Source of the DNA: Monilinia fructicola | Lineage: Eukaryota; Ascomycota; Leotiomycetes; Helotiales; Sclerotiniaceae | Length of the DNA: 64,000 nucleotides | NCBI GenBank assembly: GCA_008692225.1 | Contig: VICG01000013.1 | Coordinates: 1,488,001 to 1,552,000, forward strand | Reading direction: 5' to 3' | In this document: one piece after another, positions 16,533-21,359 of the stretch | How the letters are laid out: every line of letters starts with the position of its first letter | Position numbering within the stretch: the first letter of the stretch is position 1 | The notes under the pieces: model-generated | What the model was told of the DNA's origin: nothing | What the model saw: only the letters and a program-made list of their open reading frames with translations | Database searches by the model: none | Position numbers and translations under genes: made by a program

Positions 16533-19500
16533 CTACATCTGACTCTTCTTTCTCGCTCTCATGTTTGGTAGGGTATTCATCTTGCCTGGCCTCCTCCCAA
16601 TCTCCACACACAAGAAACGGGTAAAATCCTTACTGTTCCAGTAACTGCTATGTGCAGACAACATATCAATATATTGATTGGCCAACATGCCCTGACGATT
16701 GCCCAAAATCCAATCTACCTGACCATTCTCATTCAACTGACAGAATTTCTTCTCTGCCATTTCCTCGGCAGTGAAATCATGAACTTCCATTTCCATTTGA
16801 GAAGGCATCTTGGTTATAGCAGCAGGTCTAGGCATTTCTCCAACAGAAATTTCTTCATTTTGTGACATACCAGCGGCAGATTTCATCGCGTAAGCGACAG
16901 CGGTCATGAAACTGCGTGAAGAGTCTGGCACTTCTGCTGGCTTGAGACATGCGCTGTATCGTGAATCTACACATGCATTCAAACGATACGCGATAGGATC
17001 GTTGCAATGTATGATATTGTAAATGTTATCTACTGCCAAGCAGCCGAATGTACCCGCATCACCGAAAACTTCTTTACCACTGCCATTCTCACATTCGCAA
17101 CCGGCCTTGAAAATACCCTTCCTGGGCACTAAAGCTTTGTTTTCAAGTAGAAGGAAGAAGGCACATGGACTTCCAGCAAGGAAGCAATTTGTCGTTCGAA
17201 ATTCGAAATGCTTCGTGTTGGGTCTCCATGAAAGCTCGGCTGGTAAGGCGGTGGGTTGCTTGCTCAAAACTTCGAGGGCCATCACGCTGCCAAGAGAGTG
17301 TGAAAGGAGGTGAACCCGACCATTTTTGTGGAAGCCTGGATTGTTCTTACACCAGAGTCGGTATATACGGTTAGCCTCGGCAATCAAAGCTGCAATCATC
17401 TTGTGTTTGTGCCCGGACATATAGTAGGGAATATCCAACATCACATCCGAGATGAGCTCCCGGACTCTTGGAATTGTTGGTTGTGTGATGTCATTGAGGG
17501 AGTAATCACAACCAACACGGTCCTTGTCTCCAGGCTTTCTTGGTCCGCCATCTTCAAAAGAAAGGTTCGCGCGCCAATTGACAGGGAGCACTGTAACGCC
17601 ACAAAATTCTTCTCGGAGCACCTTCCTTACATCGTCGTTAGTTAGTTCGCGCTTCATCTCGCACCGGAAGCTGTTGACTGCAAGAGTGAAGCTAAAGCTA
17701 TCCATACGCTCTGAAAGTTTCTGTCCAATGCCATGAACAACTAAACAAAGGTCAGAAACCTTTTCGGGTTCATCCTGTGTCTTGCATGCCGGGCATGCAT
17801 CCGAAATACCACAGTCAGAATTGCTATGCTTAGGAGGCTTTCCTTGTGGTTTCGCGATAGATGTTGATTTTTTGCAAGGATGAAGCTTGTTCCATGCCTT
17901 TCGATCAAAGCCACGAACGACAGCTACACCAACACATGCACCATTTTTGATCTTGGTAAGTGGTCTACGTCCATAATAAGCCGAAGGACAGAGACTGGGC
18001 TTCAGAATGAAAGCTTCCTCGCAATTCTTGTAGATGACTTGAGAATTCGGGTACTTCTTACTGATTGAAGTCGCTGCAGTTGGCTTTGCATCTGACTCTT
18101 CGACCTTGCCCTCTGCAGCAGCCTCGCCATAGAAGCAACGCGCAGCACAATAGGGATCTGTAGATAGCATATGTTCGGAAGCGTCGAGTGCTGAAGCCTT
18201 GGAATCTTTTTCGTTTGGCCAAAGACGATGAACAATTTTCTCTTCCCCTTCAGGGCCAACTTCTATGGCAGAATTGAGCTGATCATCCCATGTTTGTGAC
18301 CAGCATTCATTCGCCCTATAACCCTTCTCTAGCTGATTTGCAACAGCTGGCTCAACAGGGCACATAGTCTCTTTATAGAACCAAGTACCGTAGATGCAAG
18401 GGTATCGATCGTTAAGAGGCGACCAGTAAATTGGTTGCACTACCAAACACGGTAGCCTGACTGAATGTAGCCTGGAAGTTCCGACAGGCACATCAACTTG
18501 GCATTTAGTATGATCCTTGTGTTTGTAAGCTTTGCACCCTTCCACTTCCATATCCTCCGTGGAATCACGCTCGTGAGAATTTTGAGAATCAATGGCAGGT
18601 TCATTACCATGTGTTGGGTCACCCTGAGGGGCAGGGTTTTCACCACGAGCGGGTAGTTTCAGAAAAGGCTTCCCCGTTGTACCAGATCCCGCAGCTTGTC
18701 CACTTTTGGTGTACGCGTTGCCATTTCTAGCCACGGGTAAACTGGTTTCGGAATTCTGCAGGTGGGATTCGCAGATGCACTTGTCATTTGTAGCGTCTCC
18801 TTGGTCATGAATCGTGTGATCCGCCGACAAGTCTTCATCCGAGTCACTGTATAACTCATCCTCATGATCAGCCATGCCGTCTGCCTGTCGCCTGCCAAAT
18901 AATCTTCCCTTGTTTCTAGGCTTTTGGCTTGTCGTAGCTACCTTTTGTTCCACGCATGCATCGATCTCGGCCGGTCCAGAATGCTGGAACTGATTGTCAT
19001 TAGACTTTATTTTGTGTAGGTGTCTGTTCGCTCCATTAGAATGCTGGATCTGGTGGCGATGAGGATTTGAATCTTGTATCAGCGGTTTGGTGGATTGCCC
19101 AAACTGTCTATCGTGGAATGTAGACTTGTGCAGGGGTGTTCCACTAGAATTCTGGATATGGCGGGGATGCGAATTGGTCTTACGAGCCGAAGATTTGGCG
19201 GAGTGTTCCAATTGATTATTGTTAGACATCTGCTTGTGTGCGGACTGTCCAGAAGAATACTGAGATTGATTGTTGCTGTGAAAAGCCTCATGTACAGTAG
19301 CGCCAGAACATCTTTCTAACTCGGTACAGCACTCCGATCTGCCTTTGGAAGATGTCTTCAATGCATGCTTCTCTAGAATCTGGCCATCATCTTGTTTGGG
19401 TGGGTCGCAGCAGCTTCCAAATCTTGTTGGGGATTCGGGTTCAGGTTGATCTTGATAAGAAACATTGCCCTTACTCTCATCACAGCAGCTTGAGATAGAA

Positions 19501-21359
19501 TTTGCTTCCGTTTCTTTGGATGGATCAGGCTTGCTCTTATTGCAGCTGCCTGAAAATTCAGTTTCGGCCTCGGAATCCTTTCGCTTAGAAGAGCTATTGC
19601 CCTTACTCTTATCACAGCTACCCGAGAATATAGTTTCGGCTTGGGATTCTCTTCGCTTCAAAGAGCTGCTGTCCTTACTTTGCTCGCATCTGCCCAAGAA
19701 AATACTTTCGACTTCGGATAGTTGTCGCTGGAGGGAGCTGTCGCCTTTGTTTTCGTCACAACAACTTGGTATTCGTGAGGCTAGCGAAGCGATGCCATGT
19801 TTCTCCTCTTTATAATCGAATTCAGCACAGCAAGCATCTTCATCATCATGTCCATCATCGGACTCATCATTGTCTTCAGTCTTGTGGCGATGATTTTTGC
19901 AGAACGAGGCTGAACTTGGCTCCATCTGAGCTTTCAGTTGCTGGTCAAACCAAGCCTCTGTCTTCTCTATTTGATTGGTTTCATTTGGGTCATCAGTAGC
20001 AATTGCCTTTCCCTTGGTCTTCGACTTTCTTGTAGAAGGGTTCTTGTCCTTAGGTAGCTCAATAATAATATTTTCTGCAGGTTTGGAATCTCTTTCGGAT
20101 CTTTTCCTTTCGGATCTTCCTTTCTTACAATTGTGTGACCAATGCTTGGATCGCTTGAGCTGATCTGCCTCATCGTTCTGAAGTTCTTCTTCGGTGCACG
20201 AACACTCAGGCTTGGGATTGCCTTCTGGTTTGGTTTCCCTGTCGACCTTTTCTCTTTCGGATTTTACTCTCGTACAATTGTGCTCCCACTGCCTAGATAG
20301 CTTGTGCTGGTCGTCCTTATCTTGCTGAATTTCGTTCTCAGTGCACGAACACTCGGGCTGGAGATCATCCGGCTGACGTCCTTTGCAGTCTCCTCTTTTA
20401 GGCTTTCCCGGGTGAAGTGGCTCGGTAGGTAAACTATATCCCGATTGAGGTTCCTCAAATGTTCCGACTTCACAAGCTGAGTCTTCTGGCGGATTGTTAC
20501 ACGAACACGCAGGTTCAGGATCTTCCTCTAATTTGGATTCCCTTGCAGACCTTCCTCTTTCGGATTTTCCCTTTCTGCGATTGTGCTCCCAATGTTTGGA
20601 ATGCTTTATTTGATCAGGTTTATCTTCCTGGGTGTCCTCCTTGGACTTGGGATTGATGATTGGCACTGCGGAGGTGGGTTTGTCTTTGGTCTGTTGATGT
20701 AATATATGGGGTTGGTAGGTTTGAGTTTCAGTCCCCACATTTTGGGAAGCTTTGGGGCAAGATGCACACGTGCATGTTCCTGTCTTCTTCCTACACCACA
20801 GATGACTTCCTTTGCAGGGACAGCCAATCATTTCTAATGCAGATTTCGCCCCTTTTCCACCTACGACGTGTTCCTGGTGGTAACTTGCAGTCCCAGAATT
20901 GGTTGGCTGTTGGTGAGTTGTCGATCCAGTCGTTGGTTGATATGTTTCTGGATTTGCTATGGTAGGCTTCAATGATTCTTTGAAGTCTTTGGCCTCCTGT
21001 CGAGTCTTGGGCTTCAAGCCAATAACAAGCTTCTTGTCTACGGTCGGCTCGATGCCTGATTTGGGTCTAGATGTACGATTATGGCTTTTGCGGTCCCTCT
21101 TCGAACCCATTCGCAACCATGCCTCCAGAAGCGCCTTGTTATCGCACTTTTGAAAAGGTCGAGGAGGGTACTTGATATTCTTGGAGTCGGCGGTTGGAGG
21201 TGCTCCTGCAGTGAGAGAATCATCGAGTGGAAGAGGGGAGCAATAGAAGAACTGTGCTCGCATTGGGGGCATCTCATCACACGGTTTGCGTACTTGCTCG
21301 CTGCTGCTGGGAGGTGCAAAGTCACACCCACGTCCCAAGGTATGAATAGGTAGAGACAT
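16533..21359 (-). CDS. DDHD-domain phospholipase (PA-PLA1-like) with giant Cys/His-rich insertion
   Basis: One uninterrupted exon of 1,608 codons. Residues 34-82 (QFFYCSPLPLDD, then PPRPFQKCDNKALLEAWL) are the conserved N-terminus of fungal DDHD proteins. Residues 957-1160 carry the pre-catalytic region (VPVGTSRLHSVRLP, QPIYWSPLND, GTWFYKETMCPVE). The alpha/beta-hydrolase core begins at VVHGIGQ (about 1207). The nucleophile is Ser1355 in SHSLGS, which matches the SHSLG/GHSLG variants of this family. The DDHD domain follows (about 1385-1590), with AVDNIYNIIHCNDPIAYR and LSAHSSYWNSKDFTRF. The family hydrolyses phosphatidic acid or related phospholipids on ER/Golgi membranes. Residues about 90-950 are not expected: they are low-complexity, Cys/His/charged, with three separate tandem-repeat families. 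The core is intact, so the enzyme is probably active. A paralogue of a normal-sized DDHD protein is possible. Confidence 0.88.
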   Translation of the reverse strand: MSLPIHTLGRGCDFAPPSSSEQVRKPCDEMPPMRAQFFYCSPLPLDDSLTAGAPPTADSKNIKYPPRPFQKCDNKALLEAWLRMGSKRDRKSHNRTSRPKSGIEPTVDKKLVIGLKPKTRQEAKDFKESLKPTIANPETYQPTTGSTTHQQPTNSGTASYHQEHVVGGKGAKSALEMIGCPCKGSHLWCRKKTGTCTCASCPKASQNVGTETQTYQPHILHQQTKDKPTSAVPIINPKSKEDTQEDKPDQIKHSKHWEHNRRKGKSERGRSARESKLEEDPEPACSCNNPPEDSACEVGTFEEPQSGYSLPTEPLHPGKPKRGDCKGRQPDDLQPECSCTENEIQQDKDDQHKLSRQWEHNCTRVKSEREKVDRETKPEGNPKPECSCTEEELQNDEADQLKRSKHWSHNCKKGRSERKRSERDSKPAENIIIELPKDKNPSTRKSKTKGKAIATDDPNETNQIEKTEAWFDQQLKAQMEPSSASFCKNHRHKTEDNDESDDGHDDEDACCAEFDYKEEKHGIASLASRIPSCCDENKGDSSLQRQLSEVESIFLGRCEQSKDSSSLKRRESQAETIFSGSCDKSKGNSSSKRKDSEAETEFSGSCNKSKPDPSKETEANSISSCCDESKGNVSYQDQPEPESPTRFGSCCDPPKQDDGQILEKHALKTSSKGRSECCTELERCSGATVHEAFHSNNQSQYSSGQSAHKQMSNNNQLEHSAKSSARKTNSHPRHIQNSSGTPLHKSTFHDRQFGQSTKPLIQDSNPHRHQIQHSNGANRHLHKIKSNDNQFQHSGPAEIDACVEQKVATTSQKPRNKGRLFGRRQADGMADHEDELYSDSDEDLSADHTIHDQGDATNDKCICESHLQNSETSLPVARNGNAYTKSGQAAGSGTTGKPFLKLPARGENPAPQGDPTHGNEPAIDSQNSHERDSTEDMEVEGCKAYKHKDHTKCQVDVPVGTSRLHSVRLPCLVVQPIYWSPLNDRYPCIYGTWFYKETMCPVEPAVANQLEKGYRANECWSQTWDDQLNSAIEVGPEGEEKIVHRLWPNEKDSKASALDASEHMLSTDPYCAARCFYGEAAAEGKVEESDAKPTAATSISKKYPNSQVIYKNCEEAFILKPSLCPSAYYGRRPLTKIKNGACVGVAVVRGFDRKAWNKLHPCKKSTSIAKPQGKPPKHSNSDCGISDACPACKTQDEPEKVSDLCLVVHGIGQKLSERMDSFSFTLAVNSFRCEMKRELTNDDVRKVLREEFCGVTVLPVNWRANLSFEDGGPRKPGDKDRVGCDYSLNDITQPTIPRVRELISDVMLDIPYYMSGHKHKMIAALIAEANRIYRLWCKNNPGFHKNGRVHLLSHSLGSVMALEVLSKQPTALPAELSWRPNTKHFEFRTTNCFLAGSPCAFFLLLENKALVPRKGIFKAGCECENGSGKEVFGDAGTFGCLAVDNIYNIIHCNDPIAYRLNACVDSRYSACLKPAEVPDSSRSFMTAVAYAMKSAAGMSQNEEISVGEMPRPAAITKMPSQMEMEVHDFTAEEMAEKKFCQLNENGQVDWILGNRQGMLANQYIDMLSAHSSYWNSKDFTRFLCVEIGRRPGKMNTLPNMRARKKSQM
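18969..19280 (-). repeat. Protein repeat family C in DDHD insertion (residues about 694-797)
   Basis: Five units of about 20 residues rich in Asn, Gln, His and Ser, with the pattern (N/D)xQ(x)(Q/E)(H/Y)S, then small residues and an HK or RK turn. It resembles prion-like low-complexity sequence and contrasts with the Cys-rich family B just before it. Confidence 0.7.
19404..19769 (-). repeat. Protein repeat family B in DDHD insertion (residues about 531-652)
   Basis: Five units of 23-31 residues, each with S(C/R)C(D/E/N) followed by (E/Q/K)SKG or NKG, a Ser run, and an acidic (S/E)AE(T/S)-(I/E)F segment before the next Cys. The first and fourth units carry a CC pair, the middle ones a single Cys. 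Hydrophilic and likely disordered apart from the Cys positions. Confidence 0.7.
20070..20627 (-). repeat. Protein repeat family A in DDHD insertion (residues about 245-430)
   Basis: Three copies of a unit of about 60-70 residues: a D(Q/H)-basic lead, then (K/R)(H/Q)W(E/S)HN, a Lys/Arg/Glu-rich helix and an (A/E)CSC end in the first two copies. The copies start at about residues 249, 350 and 399. They are preceded by a separate Cys-dense patch around residues 180-201 (GCPCKG, WCRK, CTCASC). The Cys-x-Cys ends and WxHN cores suggest metal binding, but this is inference. Confidence 0.7.

Follow-up and report, generated by a model that had tools for sequence, protein, structure and literature searches.

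What is the long, cysteine-rich, repeat-bearing arm of a DDHD phospholipase-like protein from Monilinia fructicola, and what might it do for the enzyme that carries it? The gene lies within a stretch of 64,000 nucleotides, referred to here as the window, and its frame is free of stops across all 1608 aa (16533-21359, minus strand). Six relatives (P0002-P0007) match the window protein at 58-73% identity with 100% query coverage, and it scores 103 bits against the Pfam DDHD model PF02862, above the curated cut-off of 28.3, and carries the DDHD domain fold, with the middle of the model (positions about 103-188) unmatched. Across 35 aligned rows, D1454, D1549 and H1570 are invariant and D1578 is almost so; we take these four to be the D, D, H and D positions for which DDHD domains are named. 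Ser1355 is likewise invariant in the 35 rows and sits in the motif S-H-S-L-G-S, with a serine where the first glycine is expected, the nucleophile motif of DDHD intracellular phospholipases A1 being given as Gly-X-Ser-X-Gly in an excerpt of the source (PMC9031518). To the first-pass annotation the hydrolase and DDHD parts looked intact, and this impression is supported. By its sequence, the gene encodes a DDHD phospholipase-like enzyme that belongs to a known family and is ordinary in it, with phospholipase activity predicted. A WWE-like region precedes the hydrolase, with E-values of 0.47 in the window protein and 0.00099 in P0016, both short of the cut-off. The catalytic half also contains nearly invariant cysteines (32 aligned rows) at residues 1068-1075 (DPYCAARC) and 1189-1192 (CPAC), a possible further metal site. 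Among family kin, DDHD1, DDHD2 and yeast YOR022C are set apart from the window protein by its subfamily N-terminal motif and its long arm with a cysteine patch and repeats, a distinction drawn from descriptions of the family.

The N-terminal motif FFYxSPLPxDDPL is strongly conserved throughout the subfamily, and residues 1-95 have a mean identity to the window protein of 0.83 in 12 Sclerotiniaceae-type proteins. This block had been read as a conserved DDHD N-terminus; the conservation is real, but it belongs to a fungal subfamily rather than to DDHD proteins at large. A second DDHD gene, which the first-pass annotation proposed looking for, is present in the genome and lacks such an arm, and the N-terminal block of the window protein finds no credible match in it (best E 0.11). 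Inspection by eye found no hydrophobic stretch at the N terminus of the window protein, and the arm is therefore probably in the reducing cytosol.

Comparison with relatives changes the picture of the arm as an insertion, which is how it had been described. Among 328 proteins found, 120 were listed (the window's included), and 117 of these, all but P0072, P0088 and P0101, could be anchored by both the N-terminal motif and the pre-catalytic block. In every anchored protein an arm lies in the same place, between these two blocks, with lengths of 136-1008 residues, so "insertion" is the wrong term. The window arm, Cys-rich and repeat-bearing, measures 842 residues (86-928). Arms span 574-1008 residues in 12 rows of Sclerotiniaceae type (P0001-P0012, called family rows below, of which four are assigned by their position inside the clade) and 411 and 428 residues in two Rutstroemiaceae, and the longest arm outside the Sclerotiniaceae-type rows among the 117 has 684 residues (P0100). 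A second search started from a Sordariomycete relative, of which the best 120 of 1238 proteins were used, enlarged the set to 234 proteins, of which 227 were anchored. Long variable arms are common in this fungal DDHD subfamily as sampled by sequence, and what is special about the window arm is its length and its Sclerotiniaceae repeats. The orthologues of Monilinia vaccinii-corymbosi (P0002), Ciborinia (P0006), Botrytis (P0008-P0010, P0012) and Sclerotinia borealis (P0011) share its arm, patch and first two repeat tiers, and differ from it in arm length and in the third tier.

Table 1. Features of the window gene and of the L009 frame; positions are those of the window unless a locus is named.
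Feature	Residues	Position	Strand	Basis or remark
Whole gene		16533..21359	(-)	Single open frame, 1608 aa, DDHD phospholipase-like protein
N-terminal motif FFYxSPLPxDDPL...	1-95	21075..21359	(-)	Kept in fungal subfamily
Cys patch, metallothionein-unit-like, predicted folded	176-204	20748..20834	(-)	Pattern, profile, model
WxHN/CSC unit 1 (tier 1)	241-288	20496..20639	(-)	Self-match, profile
WxHN/CSC unit 2 (tier 1)	336-384	20208..20354	(-)	Profile, predicted helix 341-375
WxHN/CSC unit 3 (tier 1)	385-428	20076..20207	(-)	Self-match, profile
Predicted helix around TEAWFDQQLKAQ	461-478	19926..19979	(-)	pLDDT block means 73, 74
SCCD and SC units (tier 2)	505-660	19380..19847	(-)	Self-match, profile, DNA repeat
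ECCTELER	673-684	19308..19343	(-)	Compared with CCx[ED]L rows
Asn/Gln/His/Ser units (tier 3)	686-800	18960..19304	(-)	Little conserved
Island with DQGDATND and CxC pair	817-864	18768..18911	(-)	Conservation
GTTGKPF island (GxxGxPF in wider set)	889-908	18636..18695	(-)	Conservation
WWE-like region	940-1011	18327..18542	(-)	Below cut-off in window protein
Alpha/beta-hydrolase and DDHD part	1200-1608	16536..17762	(-)	Ser1355 nucleophile in SHSLGS; D1454, D1549, H1570, D1578
L009 frame		L009:721-1641, around G000:C1:2739852-2740187	(+)	Open frame with metallothionein-unit tail

On sequence comparison, two layers of the arm can be told apart: old islands, comprising the motif at the N terminus, the CCx[ED]L di-cysteine motif, GTTGxPF and the cysteine patch at residues 180-201, and young repeats of Sclerotiniaceae type. 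The repeats are evident from the arm's internal self-match, which scores 266 at best where 20 shuffles reach no more than 90; tiers 1, 2 and 3 separately score 158, 188 and 84 against maxima of 88, 59 and 66 (60 shuffles each), and the catalytic part, at 31 against 58 in 20 shuffles, does not exceed its shuffles. Tier 2 contains a 72-bp tandem DNA repeat at 19530-19719. Profiles made from the window's own units, which may miss distant forms, count three WxHN/CSC units in the window arm, exactly as the first-pass annotation had it. Its five S-C-C-D/SKG units are real as repeats but number six, three SCCD and three 24-residue SC units, and its five Asn/Gln/His/Ser units are present, with a profile count of six, all weak. 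Searched over the 117 arms, WxHN units (1-3 per row) and 24-residue SC units (1-5 per row) each occur in 12/12 family rows and in 0/105 others, and SCCD units (2-3 per row) in 12/12 family rows, with a single further occurrence in Clarireedia. Five of the 12 family rows (P0001-P0004 and P0006) have the Asn/Gln/His/Ser unit.

In a predicted model of residues 1-960, computed from 32 rows, the mean pLDDT is 45.8 and 794 residues fall under 50, so by prediction the arm is mostly disordered. The blocks of the cysteine patch form an ordered piece (pLDDT means 80, 89 and 73), as do helices at 71-84, 341-375 (up to 92) and 461-478, the last lying in a region, 457-480, with a mean identity of 0.64. The helix at 341-375, which includes Cys362, is not conserved, and since it outscores the patch, confidence alone proves little. 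A Foldseek search with the 1-960 model returned no match, which is uninformative because the model is mostly unfolded.

The patch itself is present as the first-pass annotation described it at residues 180-201. It has six cysteines and one histidine in the pattern C-x-C-x3-H-x2-C-x6-C-x-C-x2-C-P (180-202). The strict six-Cys pattern is found in 30 of 110 anchored Leotiomycete-ranked rows (P0001-P0113), every family row among them, and is missing from the 117 later rows, which are Sordariomycete where named; profile searches add eroded or weak patches in P0023, P0109, P0093 and P0030 (E 0.051 for P0030). The six cysteines are invariant in part because rows were chosen by them, and the histidine, which lies outside the search pattern, is present in 30/30 patch rows. 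On a tree built from 81 of the 227 rows, the patch label changes 10 times, 7 of these forced by well-supported branches, compared with 23.5 for shuffled labels; the patch has therefore been lost several times or gained several times. Because its strict form is absent from 80 of the 110 rows and from all 117 later ones, the enzyme has no need of it. Residues 161-220 have no Pfam match, and the only solved-structure row for the patch profile, Sarcospan, has an E-value of 0.2 and was taken as chance.

The patch resembles the repeat unit of fungal copper metallothioneins. An excerpt from the source (PMC4755600) gives the unit of the Tremella metallothionein TmMT as CXCX3CSCPPGXCXCAXCP, together with the spacing of the Neurospora protein. 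Against the Tremella pattern with serine as filler the patch profile scores 28.6 bits, a value that 0/300 full shuffles equal; random fillers give a mean of 23.3 (18.0-29.9), which 6/300 Cys-keeping shuffles reach, and the Neurospora metallothionein gives 17.8, equalled by 2/300 shuffles. Five other fungal metallothioneins do not rise above shuffles when compared with the patch profile (23 to 77 of 300). The DNA pattern for G-x-C-x-C-x-x-C-P occurs at 12 places in the genome and at 10 for a reversed control, which is no enrichment, and among ten of the 12 places inspected only L009, on contig C1, shares with the window a position in a long frame. This frame of 307 residues, which has no Pfam match, carries three tandem 7-Cys units as its tail. 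The relatives of that tail number 56, with 1-6 units each; 38 of them carry an RRM domain and one bears the name 'related to actin cytoskeleton protein (VIP1)' (hereafter VIP1-type tails), and all 146 units in the 56 proteins are spaced CxC-x6-CxC-x4-CxC-x2-C.

The patch cysteines, at offsets 1, 3, 10, 17, 19 and 22, all fall on those of the 7-Cys unit (1, 3, 10, 12, 17, 19 and 22). Such a register arises in 5 of 4845 random placements of the four inner cysteines and in 4 of 560 placements of the three that the search pattern does not fix. Of the 30 patches, 27 have exactly the tail-unit spacing, P0032, P0034 and P0043 deviate from it by one residue, and the consensus of 125 distinct tail units equals the patches in length, coincides at 6 of 7 cysteines and agrees in PGKC and SCPK. 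The patch profile matches these 125 units (56 proteins) with a probability of 96.5 and a score of 35.1, part of the likeness having been selected for through the pattern by which L009 was found; 150 shuffles of the non-Cys columns give a mean of 20.9 and a maximum of 32.6, and shuffling all columns gives at most 19.1. Masking the G and P columns lowers the score to 27.0, a value that 1/150 shuffles attains. Against the L009 units themselves, the bias-corrected profile gives 15.3 bits for the middle unit and -3.5 and -5.2 for the others. The fungal 7-Cys copper-metallothionein unit thus shares with the patch a G-x-C-x-C-x-x-C-P-K ending and a six-Cys register, but it has three CxC pairs and a last cysteine, and the window patch, with six cysteines, is not a full unit. 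The fourth cysteine is missing from the window patch and from 29/30 patches. The exception is P0022 of Hyphodiscus hymeniophilus, in which residues 172-193, inside the DDHD arm, hold all seven cysteines at exact unit spacing; the full spacing is thus found in 1/30 patches, compared with 56/56 VIP1-type tails. The patch also differs from the 7-Cys unit in its invariant histidine, its single copy and its burial in a large enzyme, and its spacing differs from that of the Neurospora and Tremella units. Metallothioneins are small, Cys-dominated proteins, and 22 residues in a protein of 1608 do not make one. Common descent of the patch and the tail units is probable on this comparison, with convergence as the alternative. 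As for the earlier description of a possible metal-binding arm, the arm is thiol-rich and the metallothionein-unit register makes metal binding plausible.

Cysteine is also conserved elsewhere in the arm. Over the 12 family rows, mean identity to the window is 0.43 in the arm (96-928) and 0.84 in residues 929-1608. The 34 arm cysteines average 0.69, the highest of any residue type in the arm, ahead of W (0.62, 5 residues) and K (0.54), and with the patch left out the remaining 28 average 0.62, compared with 0.42 overall (p 0.00075 by permutation, 20,000 draws); these values are biased upward because alignment programs reward matched cysteines. In residues 960-1608 cysteine, at 0.85, is ordinary. 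Eight arm cysteines (296, 325, 337, 339, 362, 487, 684 and 802) are kept in 0 to 2 of 11 relatives, and the columns of Cys337, Cys339 and Cys362 in the second WxHN unit are filled in 2/11 other family rows. Histidine averages 0.33, under the arm's 0.43, so that of the label "Cys/His-rich" the cysteine part holds and the histidine part does not, the His/Asn/Gln tier being confined to 5/12 family members.

Many of these cysteines are paired. Outside the patch the window arm has 5 CC pairs where 0.93 are expected, a number reached in 0/1000 shuffles; fewer than 50/1000 shuffles match the count in 10/12 family rows (exceptions P0005 and P0010), and the same holds for CxC in 8/12 (exceptions P0002, P0003, P0005 and P0006). 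The CxC pair at 861 and 863 is unchanged throughout the 11 other family rows. CC occurs in the arms of 116/117 anchored rows after P0113, 61/98 of P0013-P0113 and 12/12 family rows, and CCxx[LFMV] in 116/117, 45/98 and 9/12, respectively; across all 227 arms, 189 have at least one CC pair, set against 37.6 expected from their own composition. The Neurospora crassa orthologue (P0139) has the CC motif and lacks the patch. ECCTELER in the window arm probably derives from the older CCx[ED]L motif. In P0114-P0234 the motif takes the form PxCCxELxxD (for example at residue 162 of P0118) in 116/117 Sordariomycete-ranked arms, often followed by FC[AG] about 13 residues on. Several Leotiomycete-ranked rows, such as P0026 and P0043, have a GNPYNPNCDDxHH-like sequence upstream of the CC motif, and the resulting Cys-His-His-Cys-Cys grouping could be a second metal site.

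Splicing and foreign origin were considered as accounts of the arm. A simple intron scan (40-200 nt, with limited donor and branch patterns) yielded one weak candidate of 195 nt, which keeps the frame, spans residues 197-261 and would take out two patch cysteines if removed; no GTA[A/T/C]GT donor lies within the arm. This candidate for a spliced-out insert is not decisive from sequence alone. A mobile-element origin was rejected, since at the protein level (E up to 0.1) and at the DNA level (E up to 0.001) the arm matches only itself in the 44.03-Mb genome, and its matches to BRCA2 and syntaxin, at E 0.0078 to 0.37, were put down to chance through composition. Some relatives (P0011, P0104 and P0107; P0130, P0133 and P0137) are annotated as fusions with a DSBA or PF01699 domain, DSBA in three of them, and these fusions may be gene-model errors. 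A link to a DSBA neighbour was set aside, as the genome's five DSBA matches lie on C2, C9, C10 and C14 and none on C13.

The reading that we consider best, at a confidence somewhat short of even, is a DDHD enzyme with an old, disordered arm bearing a metallothionein unit, lengthened in Sclerotiniaceae and coupled to metal or redox state. It is built on the open frame, the homology, the conservation, the cysteine register and the predicted local fold. The enzyme would probably be cytosolic and intracellular phospholipase A1-like, with an old, largely disordered N-terminal arm in which residues 180-201, as one degenerate metallothionein-type unit, most likely fold around Cu(I) or Zn(II), and which bears further paired cysteines (CxC and CC). 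Tandem duplication of Cys-bearing segments would have lengthened the arm in Sclerotiniaceae. Its thiols could bind Cu(I) or Zn(II) in the reducing cytosol, and metal loading or thiol oxidation could then alter its compactness or its partners and, through these, the site or the strength of the phospholipase's action on membranes. We infer the binding, the choice of metal, the location and the coupling to lipase activity; on that footing the arm most likely serves as a disordered tether, rich in thiols, that responds to metal or redox state. That a metallothionein unit was captured early in Leotiomycetes, loads Cu(I) and switches the membrane action of the DDHD enzyme seems unlikely to us, and would fit P0022, which still has all seven cysteines, and the extra Cys repeats that surround the unit in Sclerotiniaceae.

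The arm might instead be a loosely constrained, disordered spacer grown by replication slippage, its repeats functionless and its cysteine conservation a product of alignment and descent. The length range of 574 to 1008 residues within 12 family rows, the presence of tier 3 in only five of them, the visible 72-bp tandem repeat, an arm identity of 0.43 beside 0.84 for the enzyme part and the 8 of 34 arm cysteines kept in at most 2/11 relatives are all as such a spacer would have them. We nevertheless think it somewhat unlikely, as cysteine tops the arm's residue types in conservation, the patch holds its histidine together with its cysteines across distant rows, and tiers 1 and 2 are present in all 12 family rows. 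For the patch alone, a structural zinc knuckle that binds protein or lipid and has come to resemble metallothionein units by convergence would account for the gained invariant histidine and the missing cysteine, a combination more usual in zinc sites, and for the predicted local fold. The lack of a Pfam match and the lone Sarcospan row speak against it, as do the register, the PG and SCPK letters common to the units and the 7-Cys version in P0022, and we hold it to be distinctly unlikely. Highly doubtful, in our judgement, is that the cysteine pairs are S-acylation sites anchoring the enzyme to membranes: CC doublets exceed shuffles in 10/12 family arms, the CCx[ED]L-type motif of 116/117 Sordariomycete-ranked rows has partly hydrophobic flanks, and DDHD2 is mostly recovered in the membrane fraction according to an excerpt of the source (PMC9031518), but the window doublets lie in polar, often acidic surroundings, and acylation leaves unexplained both the CxC patch and the resemblance of that patch to metallothionein units.

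Among the literature matches listed, no paper describes the arm, a DDHD protein that contains a metallothionein unit, or tails of this kind on VIP1 proteins; relative to those matches, the metallothionein-like unit within a DDHD enzyme and the Sclerotiniaceae Cys repeats appear from their sequences to be new. The arm is a clean case of a disordered stretch that drifts in length while many of its cysteines are held, and the metallothionein tail on an RNA-binding-type protein may merit its own study. If the preferred reading of a metal- or redox-coupled arm is true, metallothionein-type units would be modules on unrelated proteins, a phospholipase arm and RRM/VIP1-type tails, beyond their role as free-standing buffers. 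Copper is used in agriculture as an antifungal, as an excerpt of the source states (PMC6981102), and the same reading would provide a testable link between copper and phospholipid turnover; were the unit captured as proposed, metal status and lipid turnover would be joined in one protein.
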